Shown here: piece after piece, positions 23,057-39,324 of the stretch
How positions within the stretch are numbered: position 1 is the first letter of the stretch
How the letters are laid out: the number at the start of each line of letters is the position of its first letter
Assembly (NCBI GenBank): GCA_000333855.2
Contig: CM007343.1
Span: 664,044-724,170, forward strand
Length of the DNA stretch: 60,127 bases
Origin: Endotrypanum monterogeii
Taxonomy: Eukaryota; Euglenozoa; Kinetoplastea; Trypanosomatida; Trypanosomatidae
Direction: 5' to 3'
Position numbers and translations under genes: made by a program
Notes under the pieces: model-generated
Told to the model about the DNA's origin: nothing
The model's input: only the letters and a program-made list of their open reading frames with translations
Database searches by the model: none

Positions 23057-23565
23057 GATGGGCGAGGACGCCTCCACCTCGCTAGGTACTGCAGCTACCC
23101 CTCCTCACCTTTTTTATATATGTGTGTTTTCACGTGCCTAAATTTCATTCCTGCTGACTCGCCCTATATCTCCCCTCATCCTTCATATTCACATTTGCAT
23201 TCTATTTTTTCCTGATAAAAATGCTCCTCTCTTCGTTCCTCTGCCGCACGCATGGAGGTTCCCTTGACTTTTCAGACTCGCGTGGATTGAGAACCAGCGC
23301 GCATTGTCATACACACACACACACACATATATGCATATATATGCATATTGAAATATATATATATATATATATACATATACATGTATATGCAAGAAAACAA
23401 ATAGGCGCGTACTGAAAGCGGCTTTACTACATTGATCCGCTGGGGCTCGTCAGAACGGCTCATCTCGAGATTTCTTTGGGTGCGCTAATCCCCCCATACT
23501 ATCGTTTGACGTTTTCTTTCCCTATCTCCTCTGCATTCTATCGCAAGCCGTGGGGGTTGGAGACA

Positions 23566-25125
23566 ATGTCAGCTCCTACTTTTATCACCAAGAAAGATCT
23601 GTACGACTGGCTGGTGGTGCAGACCGAGGCGCTGGTTGAGGGGTTGAGCAAACGCTTCACTCCACAGGCGAACCTCGTGACCAGCCTGAGCAATGTAGCT
23701 GCGCTTTTTTTTTACGAGCTCAATCGGTTCTGCAACCCCGGCGCTGCGCTAGAGAGGCTCAAGGTCAACTGGTTCGGTTTCTACCTACTTCAGGCACCCG
23801 GGCTGCTTTCCCTGGGGCCCTTTCAAGGCCGTCCCGCGTGCGCAGAGATTCGGGTCGGAAGAGGTGTTTGCGGCACCGTGGCTGAGTCTGGTGAGTCGCT
23901 AGTGGTGCAGAACGTCCACGAGTTTGCGGGTCACATCGCGTGTGACTCGGTCTCGGAGTCAGAGATTGTGGTGCCGCTGCTTATAGAGAATGGAAGCGTC
24001 GTGGCCGTCATTGACGTGGATAGCACCGAGCTGGGTCATTTTTCGGAGGAGGACAAGGAGGGTTTGGAGCGCGTTGCCGCTGTGCTCGTGCAACACCTCG
24101 ACTTCCCCATGGCACGGGCACTCACATTGAACCCTGCGCTTGGGATACCTGGTTATACGGCGCTGGCTGGCGGTGCGAAGGCGCTTCCATTGCTCACTGA
24201 CGGCGATGAGGGTGCCCAGTCCGCTTCTGTGGTCGCAGGTAGGACGACAGTGTCAACCAGCACGACTGTGACCCACATCCCTACTGTTAAGGTGGAGATG
24301 AAGCAACCAGAGGTGATGGTGAGCCATGTGAAGGGATGGGAGTTTATTCGCACTAAATTGGACCGCATCGTTACGCAAGACGAGGCCCAGAGTCTGCAGG
24401 ACTCGTTGGGCATCTCCGCGTTGCCTGAGATCGCCTTTCATGGAGAAACGCTTTCGCTGGGCCCCAAGGAAGATCCGGGGTGCCCGTGGCTGCAGTTCAG
24501 TTTTGAGGCTTTGATGCGCAGCGCAGCGCACTACTATCAGACGGAAGAGTTCAACACGACAGTTTCTAAGCAACTCCGCATCCCAGCGTCGGCGAGCTGG
24601 GAGTCCTTTAATTTTCAGAAATACGATCCGAAGGTGGACTGGGCGTGGCGCAACGATTTTTACGGTCTCGTCCCCGAGCAGGTGAGACTTGTGGCGCGCC
24701 CAAGCGACGACGCAGACGCGCCTGGAATCAACTGGGGTCTCTTGAGGGATACGAGTCTTCCTATTTTGTTCTATGGTGATTTTGATATGATGGAGGACGA
24801 CCTGCACGATCATGGCGTGGTGACGGGAAGCGTCAAGTATCGCGTCATGGACACTGCTTTCTTTGTTCTTTTCCGTCATTTTGTGCGGGTTGACAACCAC
24901 GAGATTTGGATGCGGGAGGTTCGAGTTTTCCACGAGTTTGGCAAGACACGCTCTCCGTCTGGTATACCACACATCGTCCTGCTCGAGCAGCTGCGCCGCG
25001 TGAGTATTGCAGAGCCGGTGGATAGCGTTGACTGGAAGTCCATGTCTTCTGACGCTATCTCCGCTAAGGCTGAGGTTTTCTTCTCGCGTGAGTGGATGTT
25101 GGAGAGGGTGGCGGTCACGGCGTAG
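23566..25125 (+). CDS. free methionine-(R)-sulfoxide reductase fused to TIP41-like domain
   Basis: 519 residues from ATG 23566. Residues 1-185 are a GAF-fold free methionine-(R)-sulfoxide reductase: the three conserved cysteines are present as Cys92 (GRPAC), Cys102 (GRGVCG) and Cys126 (HIACDS), with the enzyme family's spacing of 10 and 24 residues, plus FSEEDKEGLE at the domain end. After a linker (about 186-255) comes a TIP41 domain at about 256-465: GWEF, LPEIAFHGETL, DWAWRNDFYG, ILFYGDFDMMEDDLHDHG, and YHEAGKT-like FHEFGKT. TIP41 proteins regulate PP2A-type phosphatases through TAP42 and TOR signalling. The fusion would couple repair of free oxidised methionine to phosphatase control. No stop, frameshift or intergenic signal lies between the two parts. 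Confidence 0.9.
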   Translation: MSAPTFITKKDLYDWLVVQTEALVEGLSKRFTPQANLVTSLSNVAALFFYELNRFCNPGAALERLKVNWFGFYLLQAPGLLSLGPFQGRPACAEIRVGRGVCGTVAESGESLVVQNVHEFAGHIACDSVSESEIVVPLLIENGSVVAVIDVDSTELGHFSEEDKEGLERVAAVLVQHLDFPMARALTLNPALGIPGYTALAGGAKALPLLTDGDEGAQSASVVAGRTTVSTSTTVTHIPTVKVEMKQPEVMVSHVKGWEFIRTKLDRIVTQDEAQSLQDSLGISALPEIAFHGETLSLGPKEDPGCPWLQFSFEALMRSAAHYYQTEEFNTTVSKQLRIPASASWESFNFQKYDPKVDWAWRNDFYGLVPEQVRLVARPSDDADAPGINWGLLRDTSLPILFYGDFDMMEDDLHDHGVVTGSVKYRVMDTAFFVLFRHFVRVDNHEIWMREVRVFHEFGKTRSPSGIPHIVLLEQLRRVSIAEPVDSVDWKSMSSDAISAKAEVFFSREWMLERVAVTA

Positions 25126-26275
25126 GTGACGGAGGCTGCTGGTGGGCTTCTCCTTTGGACACCTCTGTGCCGGGAAGCTCAGCGGTTGCACGCGCACGAA
25201 ATATTTAAGTGCACGTCATGCGGGGTTTGTGAAATCCCTTCCCACTTGCTCTTCCGCGTTTCGCCTTTTTTTTTCGTTGTTTTGATTTGATTTAGTGAGA
25301 GGCACCTCAGTACACTTTCTGCTGGCGGCCCTGCAGTCATTTTTGTGTGGCCTGTCGATTGGTTGTTTCATTTTCCGTTGCTCTTTTTTTTGTTGTTGTT
25401 GTTGTTGTCATGTTCTCAGCGATATCAATGTTGCGGCTTGAAGTGTGTTGTCTATTATTATTATAATTATTCCCAGTGTTGTGGTTGTCTGCTTCTATTG
25501 AGCAGTCTCTGTCGAGTGCACGTGGTCGCTTTTTTTTCATGGCAATAACATCTATTTCTTTTGCACACTCAAGTCACATCGAGACGCGCCTTCTTATCGG
25601 ATACTCCCCTTCTTTCATTGTCTACTAAAATGCGTTCACTGATCTCCAACTCTTCAGACGCCCACGGACACACAAGCACACACACACACAGACACAGACA
25701 CAGAGATACAGACATGAGGGGGGACATCATCAATTGATAATCTAGTCGAGGGAGGGAATCCGGCAATGCGCAGTGACGTTGGCGATGGGCAGAATTCATC
25801 AAGAACAGGGGTAGGTCCCTCTCTGACATGTGCTGCATTTTTTCTGAGTTAACGGATTCCTTTACCTGTCGATCCGCGTGCGTGCCTGTCTCGGGCTTGA
25901 TGTTGGGTGCAAGCCCACCCTTTTTTTTTTGTTCAGTCAAACGCTCTCCGAGGCATCCGAAACAGGGTGGTGGCGATGGGGGGTCCCCTGTCCCTCCCCC
26001 TTCTCGCTCTGCGACGGAGGCTCCTCTCTTTCATGTAATGGGCGTGTGCTTTGATGAACTCACTTCCTTTTTTTTTTGTGATTTAATGTGTGGTTTCATC
26101 TCCTCTTGCCTCTCCCCACCCACACAAACAGATCCAATAGTCGGCACATTCAGCTCGTGATGCTGTACCTGCCTTGCAGATCCGCACACATTATTATTAT
26201 TATTATTATTATTATTGATCATCTTTTCTATACAGAGCGTCCCCTGTTAACATTTGCACACTCACTCAGACAGGG
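25126..26275. other. intergenic, no gene seen
   Basis: Contains a TTG repeat at 25391-25408, CA run at 25675-25690, T runs at 25268, 25920 and 26068, and the ATT repeat at 26190-26216. AG at 26234-26235 after a T-rich run is a possible acceptor for the ANP32-like gene. Confidence 0.7.
26190..26216. repeat. (ATT)n microsatellite
   Basis: Nine or so ATT trinucleotides about 60 bases before the ANP32-like start. Confidence 0.95.
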
Positions 26276-35934: not shown

Positions 35935-37220
35935 GCTGCCTAACCGGTACCAGCGCTCGAGGGCAGTAGTAGAGGCTGGTAATGGTGATAGGGGGTAGGG
36001 TGGGTGAAGTGCATTGAAGAATAGAAAAAAAAAGATAATAGGATCTTTGTGTTCCTAGAACCCTAGTGACATCGGCGCATGGATATATGTAGAGGGGTGC
36101 CTACCAGGCGAGTGGCAGCAATGCAATATTTCCTCCGCTCGCGCTATCGTGGATTTCAAAATGCAGGTCGTGGTTTTCCCTGTCCATCGCTTTTCTCTAG
36201 CTTCATCCCGTCAGTCCTCTTTGTATCGCTGTGTTTTGTATGCCGGCCGGCTGTATCGAAATGATTGCATGGATTTTTTTCCCATTCTGTTTTACGGGTT
36301 TTCCTTAGTCTTCATGCGTTGAGGGTTATACTCATCATAGGTGGTGGCGCGCACGCGCCTTCGACTCGGTACAATCCGCATGGGCACCCTGCATACTGCC
36401 CGAGCACACTCGACACTTTTTATTCCTCGTTTTTTTCTCCTTTCTTTCCCCCCCCCCTCTTCTCAGGAAGGTCTCGTCTTGATACCGATTGTTGAAGGGC
36501 ATATTCCGAAGTTGGCGTCGTTTCGGTGAGGCGCAACGTCGTGTTGCGCTTCCTCTCCTTGTATGTGCCGGTGACTGTATGCTCATATGTGTATCGTGAG
36601 CGGAGAGGTGCGCACGCAGTAAACAGGGGTGTGTATTTCCCTTCTTTCGCTCTCCACGCACTATTTTGCTGTGATATGTAAGGCGCATTAGTTGTCAAGA
36701 AAACAAAAAAAAATATATCAAGTAGAAAATGGAAGTCGAAGGGGCCAAGTAGCACATACCCCTAAGTTGTGTATGTGTGTGTGTGTGTGGGGGGGTTATG
36801 GTGATGGTTTGTGTTGAAGTTAATGTGTGTTTGCTGATCGTTCTCGCCTGGCCGCAGCTCCGTGCTCTCTTATTCTTTCTGTTCTCTGGTGTGGGGCACT
36901 GAAAGAAGCAGGGGAATTTGGGGGTGGTGGTTGGGGGTCAGCGAGTGAACTTATGCATCCAAGGGGTGAGCAGGAGGGGGGGGGGGGGGCGGAGTCAGAA
37001 ATGGTGTCCATCATAGTCATTTCGACCTTGTATTTTGGCAGATTTGTGAGCGACTGCTTTTGAGACGTAATCCGCAGGGCACTGCGTAGGGTGGAGGGGC
37101 GGGGGGGGAGAGAGAGGGAAGGCACGGGTTTTAAGGTATACGTGTCGAAGTGTTGGTTGTCATTTTCCCTAATTGTCGTCTACACTTCCGGGCTTCTCTC
37201 TTCCCCCCCCCCCCCCCCGC

Positions 37221-37617
37221 TCGTTAGAGACATATTTGCTTGCCCCCTTTTTCTGCGCTCAAGCACCCCCTCCTTTTTTCTCTGTGGCGAGACGGGCACG
37301 GAGGTATTCTTGCCCTCATACATCCTTTTGGATTGACCTGCATGAGCATACTGGCGTTCTCTCCAGAGCTTTACTCACACTTTTCGTTTTGCGTCTCATC
37401 TCTGCTGTGTTTTTTTCTCGGAAAGTATCACCCTGGCGTTTACGAACGTGTTTGCGTGTCTCGGTGCCGCCGGCGAGCAACTTCTTGCGCGTTGTGGACA
37501 TCGGAAAGTGTCGGGGAAAAAAAATTAGCCGTATTTTCCCCTTTTTTTTCCCGCCTTCTCTCTTCACAGGGTGTAATTCTGTGCCTGTGTTGGTGTCATT
37601 ATTCAAGGAAACGAAAG
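37221..37617 (+). repeat. first copy of the 397-base duplicated block before COX10
   Basis: Matches 37732-38128 at an offset of 511 bases with a single difference seen (A at 37445, G at 37956). The block includes a full polypyrimidine tract and CAG acceptor at 37568-37569. It ends exactly at the run of Ns, so it is probably the unresolved second haplotype or an overlapping contig end, not a true tandem copy. Confidence 0.9.
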
Positions 37618-37627
37618 NNNNNNNNNN
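37618..37627. other. assembly gap (ten Ns)
   Basis: Ten N positions. Sequence after the gap starts with a TCG-rich run and poly-C before re-entering the duplicated block. True gap length is unknown. Confidence 0.99.
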
Positions 37628-37731
37628 TCCTCCTCGTGTCGTCGTCGTCGTCGTCTACGTCGTACGTAGTAGTTGGTTCGTGTTCTTACTTATCGTCTCA
37701 CTCGTCCGTCTCTTCCCCCCCCCCCCCCCCC

Positions 37732-38128
37732 TCGTTAGAGACATATTTGCTTGCCCCCTTTTTCTGCGCTCAAGCACCCCCTCCTTTTTTCTCTGTGGCG
37801 AGACGGGCACGGAGGTATTCTTGCCCTCATACATCCTTTTGGATTGACCTGCATGAGCATACTGGCGTTCTCTCCAGAGCTTTACTCACACTTTTCGTTT
37901 TGCGTCTCATCTCTGCTGTGTTTTTTTCTCGGAAAGTATCACCCTGGCGTTTACGGACGTGTTTGCGTGTCTCGGTGCCGCCGGCGAGCAACTTCTTGCG
38001 CGTTGTGGACATCGGAAAGTGTCGGGGAAAAAAAATTAGCCGTATTTTCCCCTTTTTTTTCCCGCCTTCTCTCTTCACAGGGTGTAATTCTGTGCCTGTG
38101 TTGGTGTCATTATTCAAGGAAACGAAAG
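37732..38128 (+). repeat. second copy of the 397-base duplicated block
   Basis: Joined directly to the COX10 start, so this copy is the one with a sure genomic context. See the first copy for the comparison. Confidence 0.9.
38050..38080 (+). promoter_or_regulatory. trans-splice acceptor of COX10
   Basis: A T/C-rich tract running into CTCTTCACAG, with the AG at 38079-38080, 62 bases before ATG 38143. This is one of the clearest acceptors in the window. An identical one exists in the duplicated block at 37539-37569. Confidence 0.7.
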
Positions 38129-38142
38129 CAGTTCAAAGGACA

Positions 38143-39324
38143 ATGCTGCACCTCACGGCGGCTCGGCATGTGCAGCTATTACGACTGACGCAGCGCCGGC
38201 TCCAGTCCGGCACCGTCACGGCATGCCCGTATCGCCAGGCCAAGGAGGGGGCTCCGACGGTCGTGGCGCAAGGGACGATGGAGCACTGCCCTGTAGTCGG
38301 TACAACTCCGCACATGACTTGCCCCCTAGAGGCGGGACAGTACGACCGCCGGACGCCGACCATCTCAATGATGACATTACAAATGGGCAAGTCACAGCTC
38401 TCTGCTCATGTGGCTGCCACAGCGTTAGCGGGGTATGTTATCGCGGGCGGCGTCAGCCCTCTTGTTGCGGCTGCCATCACAGCGGGGACGCTACTGCAGT
38501 CTTGCTCTGCCAACACAGCGAACCAAATAATCGAGGCACCATATGACAGCTTGATGAAGCGCACGTGCCGACGTCCTTTGCCTATGAAGTTTGTCTCACC
38601 ACAGCTAGCCTCGGCCATCTCAGGTGTAGAGCTCACGCTAGGCACTGCGTTGCTGTACTGCGTCAGCCCCACGGCAGCAGCCTTGGGCGTCATCAACTGG
38701 ATTTTATATGTTTGCATTTACACCCCATTGAAGCGTGTGTCGGCACTCAACACATGGTTCGGCTCTATTGTAGGCGGTGTGCCCCCGCTGATGGGCGGTG
38801 TTGCCGTCGCGGGTGTCATCACCCCACCGGTGTGGCTGTTGGCAACGTTCCTTTTCTTTTGGCAAATTCCACATTTTAACGGGCTCGCTTTTCACTGCCG
38901 CCGCGACTACGAAGCGGCGGGCTACAAGATGTTGGCATACTACAACCCCTGGCGCGCCTCTTTTTACGCTGTTGCCCTTTCTGTGTTGATGGCATTTCTC
39001 ACTCTCGTGTGCCCAACATTCGCGGGCATGGAGGTAGAAGGAGTCTGGTACTACCCAGTGACGGCTGCCGCCAACGCGCTCATGATCTACAAGTCGCTTC
39101 TCTTTCATAATGAGCCAGTAACTCATTGCCGTGGCTGCTTCGTCTTTTCATACGTGTATCTCAGCGTAGTCCTCGCCGCGCTCATGCTGAACCACTTGCA
39201 GCCGATGCACCTGGTACAGAGCGCCATCGACTACTTGACTGCGGAGACCCCGGAGGCGTCTGAGGCGTCCTTATCGATGGCACCCGTCGCAGATGCACAG
39301 TCTCCGTTGATAGCGCGTCTATAG
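38143..39324 (+). CDS. COX10: protoheme IX farnesyltransferase (heme O synthase, COX10)
   Basis: 393 residues from ATG 38143. A basic, Ser/Arg-rich leader of about 30-40 residues looks like a mitochondrial presequence. The UbiA-type prenyltransferase motifs are present: ANTANQIIEAPYDSLMKRT followed by RRPLP, then YTPLKRVSALNTWFGSIVGG, and WQIPHFNGLAFHCRRDY. Several hydrophobic segments give the polytopic inner-membrane topology. The enzyme adds a farnesyl group to heme B, making heme O for cytochrome c oxidase. An N-terminal region of roughly 90 residues before the first membrane helix is polar and longer than in bacteria. The first Met after the acceptor is used as the start. Confidence 0.95.
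   Translation: MLHLTAARHVQLLRLTQRRLQSGTVTACPYRQAKEGAPTVVAQGTMEHCPVVGTTPHMTCPLEAGQYDRRTPTISMMTLQMGKSQLSAHVAATALAGYVIAGGVSPLVAAAITAGTLLQSCSANTANQIIEAPYDSLMKRTCRRPLPMKFVSPQLASAISGVELTLGTALLYCVSPTAAALGVINWILYVCIYTPLKRVSALNTWFGSIVGGVPPLMGGVAVAGVITPPVWLLATFLFFWQIPHFNGLAFHCRRDYEAAGYKMLAYYNPWRASFYAVALSVLMAFLTLVCPTFAGMEVEGVWYYPVTAAANALMIYKSLLFHNEPVTHCRGCFVFSYVYLSVVLAALMLNHLQPMHLVQSAIDYLTAETPEASEASLSMAPVADAQSPLIARL

Follow-up and report, generated by a model that had tools for sequence, protein, structure and literature searches.

Gene and domain architecture

The window analyzed here, a 60,127-nucleotide stretch of the Endotrypanum monterogeii genome, carries a single forward-strand reading frame of 519 codons that translates without internal stops and joins a domain of the free methionine-(R)-sulfoxide reductase type (fRMsr, MsrC) to one of the TIP41 type (Table 1). 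Pfam recognizes TIP41 across residues 335-461 (E 2.1e-21; 76.6 bits against a curated cut-off of 25), and the N-terminal half matches GAF_2 (E 7e-10) and GAF (E 1.2e-9), both in excess of their curated cut-offs. When compared by sequence with the PDB, residues 11-178 retrieve fRMsr/YebR-type proteins (best 4.1e-34) and residues 258-461 retrieve TIPRL (2.9e-15). The reductase half agrees with the fRMsr-type GAF fold and the C-terminal half with that of TIPRL. A search of NCBIfam gave a match in one of six family proteins, with a score far under its cut-off.

Table 1. Features of the fusion gene (positions are those of the window) and tails of the candidate phosphatase partners elsewhere in the genome
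Feature	Position	Strand	Basis
Probable spliced-leader acceptor, pyrimidine-rich then AG 23546, ~20 bases 5′ of ATG	23508..23547	+	sequence scan
fRMsr-TIP41 fusion, whole ORF, 519 aa + stop	23566..25125	+	translation, Pfam, relatives, AlphaFold
fRMsr (MsrC) GAF domain, residues 8-180	23587..24105	+	Pfam, PDB by sequence, fold
Cys92 codon, presumed bacterial resolving-Cys equivalent	23839..23841	+	aligned to 1vhm, 3ksf; Cys in 53/55
Cys102 codon	23869..23871	+	Cys in 55/55; falls on Thermoplasma Cys60
Cys126 codon, nucleophile equivalent	23941..23943	+	Cys in 53/55; falls on Thermoplasma Cys84
Linker, residues 181-255, disordered core 198-243	24106..24330	+	pLDDT <50 at core; relatives' identity low
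TIP41 domain, residues 256-516	24331..25113	+	
Arg453 codon, counterpart of TIPRL Arg200 holding the PP2A tail	24922..24924	+	alignment; Arg in 53/55
-YFL phosphatase tails: L007 AYFL, L009 DYFL, L011 AYFL, L012 EYFL			

The two domains are separated by a linker whose core scores a pLDDT below 50 in the AlphaFold model (24157-24294), and the overall pTM of 0.57 does not indicate a fixed arrangement of GAF and TIP41 domains. The initial annotation, made from the DNA letters, had named both domains in one frame and placed a linker between them; the frame, the Pfam and PDB matches and the predicted disorder agree with it on each count. The gene (its protein designated P0001) is the sole TIP41 match in the genome and the sole place similar to itself.

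Three other features of the window may be recorded. A 314-codon open frame lies antisense to the TIP41 half (24253-25197, minus strand) and shows no sign of being a gene. At about 37173-38300, two overlapping open frames, unknown bases and stretches repeated in common resemble an assembly gap with duplicated flanks. This region lies ahead of a frame ending at 39324, which we take to encode a haem O synthase (COX10-like).

Distribution and origin of the fusion

An initial protein search returned 37 sequences, 36 of which belong to the same family, including one (P0015) with a scrambled TIP41 part, while P0038 falls outside it. Among the 120 of 201 matches listed in a second search, 39 are family members, 38 of which match TIP41 in Pfam, and 18 of the 39 are new; the remaining 81 listed matches are fRMsr-type proteins with no TIP41 match. 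The 36 and 18 relatives together with the protein of the window form the 55-member set used throughout. Since the searches for relatives took proteins of approximately 250 to 900 residues, split genes could be missed.

At least 54 relatives thus align with the fusion, which excludes chance as its source and extends the taxon distribution well beyond E. monterogeii. The named genera include Leishmania, Porcisia, Novymonas, Leptomonas and Trypanosoma (T. cruzi, T. vivax, T. grayi, T. theileri, T. melophagium, T. rangeli, T. conorhini, and T. congolense) and, among the bodonids, Bodo saltans. A further member (P0056), labelled “Tbor,” is presumably Trypanoplasma borreli. Within the size range searched, the fusion is retained in all 53 members with a usable TIP41 model, across the depth of the kinetoplastids. 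In the two others the TIP41 part of the gene model is broken or cut short: that of P0057 (Bodo saltans) ends inside TIP41. In P0015 (Leptomonas pyrrhocoris) the model passes into unrelated sequence partway through TIP41, an effect that a frameshift in the record would produce. The fRMsr-TIP41 fusion is, on these alignments, real, old and kinetoplastid-wide.

A tree of GAF domains groups all 27 fusions sampled in a single clade (support 0.997) that excludes 85 other domains of the fRMsr type; these 85 were chosen by the long-protein search, a choice that bears on how descent is told from transfer. Because the 27 domains are united in this way, we surmise that the fusion probably arose once and was then kept.

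Two candidate losses of the GAF domain were examined and rejected. One was suspected in T. brucei because this species was absent from the first searches for relatives; Tb927.5.1250 (“GAF domain/TIP41-like,” 64,339 Da) speaks against it, as does T. congolense (P0042), with its intact site. The other concerned P0054, P0055, P0058, and P0059, for which precomputed Pfam results give TIP41 only; weak GAF matches exist in all four, and all nine residues checked are kept.

Evidence for a single product

The initial annotation treated the gene as encoding a single protein, and named an acceptor in the linker as the feature that would speak for two. It is highly improbable that the halves are made as separate proteins from an internal trans-splice acceptor or start. 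The linker does contain 14 AG dinucleotides and, in E. monterogeii, two Met codons, and Met182, which lies at the end of the GAF domain just ahead of the linker, is Met in 29 of 53 sequences. However, the pyrimidine content preceding the linker AGs reaches at best 14 of 20 bases with runs of no more than five, as compared with 19/20 and a 12-base run at AG 23546 upstream of the ATG, in a scan that is unselective (15/20 with a run of 10 occurs in the GAF coding region, and 18/20 in that of TIP41). A linker Met is, moreover, absent from 19 of 37 relatives. In T. brucei, mass spectrometry of gel slices cut near 60 kDa identified Tb927.5.1250, whose predicted mass is given above; the study, on glycosyltransferases, lists the protein in passing as “GAF domain/TIP41-like family, putative” (PMC11236118). 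Several lines favor one full-length product: the linker acceptors are poor, no Met is conserved in the linker, and the protein in T. brucei is seen at about 60 kDa; the single-protein claim survives, and separate halves were set aside.

The reductase half

The initial annotation assigned catalytic roles to cysteines 92, 102, and 126, and these indeed align with those of E. coli YebR and S. aureus fRMsr. We take the E. coli cysteines to be numbered Cys84, Cys94, and Cys118, with Cys92, Cys102, and Cys126 as their respective counterparts here, and Cys92 presumably corresponds to the bacterial resolving cysteine (E. coli Cys84). The fRMsr pocket consists of a Trp, a Tyr, a Glu, and two Asp residues, all of which are present (W69, Y73, E133, D150, and D152); together with the three cysteines they are jointly intact in 52 of the 55 members. 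In the Thermoplasma enzyme Cys84 is the nucleophile and Cys60 is required for activity, according to the accessible text of PMC6211008. Cys126 and Cys102 were placed on these two residues from the residue ranges of the PDB sequence matches. From this conservation it is most likely that the domain reduces free Met-R-SO with Cys126 as the nucleophile; fRMsr enzymes are characterized by acting on Met-R-SO that is free rather than protein-bound.

In its GAF fold, three cysteines and pocket the reductase half is like stand-alone fRMsr (MsrC; E. coli YebR, yeast YKL069W). It differs in that the solved fRMsr relatives are stand-alone proteins of 160-195 residues, whereas here TIP41 is attached at the C-terminus, and in that 3 of the 55 fusion proteins have a damaged site.

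The TIP41 half and its candidate partners

In TIPRL, the cleft that receives the unmethylated PP2A tail involves I136, L141, I147, F150, K171, F180, L182, and R200, as described in the accessible parts of PMC4973239 and PMC5741625. The counterparts in the fusion are I388, L393, I400, Y403, K424, F433, L435, and R453, the numbers being derived by hand from the alignment. With F150 replaced by Tyr403, most of the cleft is kept. The two sequences with no Arg at R453 (P0015 and P0057) are the broken gene models; Leu is found at L393 in 54/55 and at L435 in 52/55, Phe at F433 in 52/55, Ile or Leu at I400 in 53/55, and Lys or Arg at K424 in 53/55. TIPRL M196 corresponds to a variable position (M449, Met in only 21/55), and, by the same hand mapping, TIPRL Asp71 and Thr138 are lost, being represented by Ala315 and Trp390. 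A further difference is that the solved TIPRL stands alone, as compared with Tip41 here, where an enzyme occupies the N-terminus.

The genome contains 27 metallophosphatase matches, four of which end in -YFL (Table 1), the reading frame being doubtful at six metallophosphatase loci (L023, L025, L026, L028, L032, and L033). There are two LCM-domain matches, one of them LCMT1-like (PDB 3iei, 3.3e-32), and TAP42 is present as two matched pieces within one open frame. One MsrA and one MsrB are also encoded. With the cleft, the -YFL tails, the LCMT1-like enzyme and TAP42 all predicted from the one genome, PP2A is a sound candidate partner. The most likely role of the TIP41 domain is to bind PP2A-type catalytic subunits by their unmethylated -YFL tails and to inactivate them together with TAP42. 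For the mammalian proteins, TIPRL is described as binding well only to PP2A that lacks the methyl group, and as taking unmethylated PP2A apart with alpha-4, with methylation blocking this (PMC4973239, PMC5741625).

As a separate observation, the MsrB match on contig 28 (L006, 912323-912658, plus strand) lies about 850 bases ahead of the phosphatase ending in EYFL (L012, 913507-914085, plus strand), so that a second methionine sulfoxide reductase adjoins a PP2A-type gene; adjacency means little in polycistronic genomes.

Members with a damaged enzyme site

Three members depart from the catalytic consensus, each known from one gene model or transcript: T. rangeli (P0026; C126V, D150Y, D152S), T. 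conorhini (P0028; C92H, C126G, D150N, D152V), and the probable Trypanoplasma (P0056; C92S, D152H). In all three, the residues are lost inside intact fusions, and at least two separate lineages are involved.

Departures at positions nearly invariant among 53 sequences fall chiefly in the GAF half: 9/35 in GAF against 0/18 in TIP41 for T. conorhini, 6/35 against 1/18 for T. rangeli, and 4/29 against 0/18 for P0056. The median of such departures is zero, and next in order comes P0058 (3/30 against 0/18), which retains the catalytic residues checked. Measured on a fixed tree from the ancestor held in common with T. cruzi, the GAF path is 0.327 for T. rangeli and 0.396 for T. conorhini compared with 0.182 for T. 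cruzi, whereas the TIP41 paths from the same ancestor are 0.100, 0.097, and 0.113, respectively. As the GAF paths are long and those of TIP41 are not, change in T. rangeli and T. conorhini rose in the reductase half only. The terminal branch of P0056 is unbiased (GAF 0.781, TIP41 0.492), with a ratio resembling that of T. cruzi.

Identity between T. rangeli and T. conorhini is 86.4% in TIP41, 71.1% in GAF, where no gaps occur, and 51.1% in the linker, and by sequence the GAF domain of T. conorhini still matches fRMsr structures. By both measures the GAF domain is not free sequence. The other Trypanosoma pairs compared likewise show lower conservation in GAF than in TIP41 (for example, 67.6% and 80.2%, respectively), while the two pairs from the Leishmania side show higher (92.5% against 88.0%, and 83.8% against 77.3%). 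Part of the difference between the halves in T. rangeli and T. conorhini is, by these comparisons, a trait of the genus Trypanosoma.

Since catalytic sites are damaged in 3/55 members, the enzyme is not required in every lineage, and to judge from the same members catalysis seems unnecessary for TIP41. As natural controls, they also allow catalysis to be considered apart from the remainder of the protein.

An old, harmless gene fusion whose halves do their usual jobs with no cross-talk is a rather unlikely explanation. It accords with the long disordered linker, which is very variable in length and sequence, with the loss of catalytic residues without visible effect on TIP41, and with the joining of fRMsr domains to many other partners in other organisms. 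Against it stands the persistence of the fusion in every member with a usable TIP41 model, among the proteins of the size searched.

A proposed tethering of reductase and PP2A inhibitor

The reading that we prefer, and to which we would give an even chance of being right, is that two working modules, fRMsr and TIP41, are tethered on the axis that leads from methionine through SAM to PP2A methylation. Kinetoplastids would thereby hold a free methionine-(R)-sulfoxide reductase on a PP2A-tail-binding inhibitor by a flexible linker. The reductase half would convert free Met-R-SO to Met, Cys126 acting as the nucleophile, and would be recharged by the tryparedoxin/trypanothione system, which feeds the kinetoplastid methionine sulfoxide reductases described in the accessible text of PMC6155587. 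The TIP41 half would grip unmethylated -YFL tails and, with TAP42, inactivate PP2A-type subunits. The methionine recovered by the first half would pass through SAM and LCMT1 to methylation of the PP2A tail and so loosen the grip of the second. The reductase half may thus bear on the methyl mark read by TIP41 because PP2A methylation in yeast increases with methionine by way of SAM (PMC7939465, PMC13240291); this methylation link is drawn by analogy with yeast and mammals. TIP41 would play its role without catalysis, for in some lineages the fusion outlasted the loss of catalytic residues. Observed directly are the architecture, its conservation, the single copy in the genome, the partner genes and the lineage-specific loss, whereas enzyme activity, PP2A binding, the electron donor and an advantage of tethering, if any, are what we infer from these data.

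A stronger form of coupling was proposed in the initial annotation, namely a single-protein redox or methionine sensor, in which TIP41 would hold PP2A more or less firmly according to the ligand bound by the GAF domain or the state of its thiols. GAF domains frequently serve as sensory modules, and here the pocket is kept in 52/55 members and Cys102 in all 55; furthermore, the two halves both relate to methionine and PP2A methylation. The architecture and the cysteines on which the proposal was built stand, but several features speak against an obligatory redox signal: the active site is damaged in 3/55 members although TIP41 is conserved, the linker is flexible (with the pTM noted above), and cysteines of the TIP41 half are not widely conserved, the best column being common to at most 14 of 53 sequences. 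A conserved thiol relay from GAF to TIP41 is, because of the last of these, unlikely. The sensor as a whole we regard as unlikely, and in most species it may operate by ligand binding alone. It is quite unlikely that the protein is a methionine-metabolite switch, in which binding or reduction of Met-R-SO in the fRMsr pocket would set the seizure of unmethylated PP2A by TIP41. Were this true, kinetoplastids would gain a direct signal from oxidised methionine to a phosphatase, which site damage would have frozen or rewired in T. rangeli, T. conorhini, and the probable Trypanoplasma.

Relation to previous annotation and significance

The initial annotation had raised the possibility that the fusion was already known in trypanosomatids, and this is the case: databases carry the label “GAF domain/TIP41-like family” (for example, Tb927.5.1250 and a protein of L. 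lindenbergi), and the reductase half has been called putative MsrC. The database entry is the same family and names both domains, but the GAF domain is not identified as fRMsr and no function is given. Single sources name one half or the other, as “type 2A phosphatase activator TIP41” or as “putative methionine-R-sulfoxide reductase with GAF domain.” For L. major, PMC3577802 describes LmjF23_1460 as a putative MsrC with 39% identity to the E. coli protein, reports that in parasites lacking MsrA one of the two MetO isomers remains low, a result credited to MsrB and/or MsrC, and mentions neither TIP41 nor PP2A. This is the same enzyme half; its chromosome number is that of contig 23, from which the window derives, and it is putatively our P0004. 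A search of open-licence papers found none that, judged by title, studied the fusion.

The fusion has consequently been partly annotated before, and its halves are partly known separately. The present analysis adds the interpretation of the two halves as fRMsr and TIP41, the single copy of the gene in a genome with the partners for PP2A methylation, and the damage, in particular lineages, that is confined to the enzyme half. As far as the literature searched extends, the linkage of nutrient and redox state to PP2A in kinetoplastids is little explored. Methionine governs, by way of SAM, the methylation that TIP41 reads; a fusion found throughout the lineage between an enzyme repairing methionine and a protein inactivating PP2A is for that reason a direct lead into this linkage.
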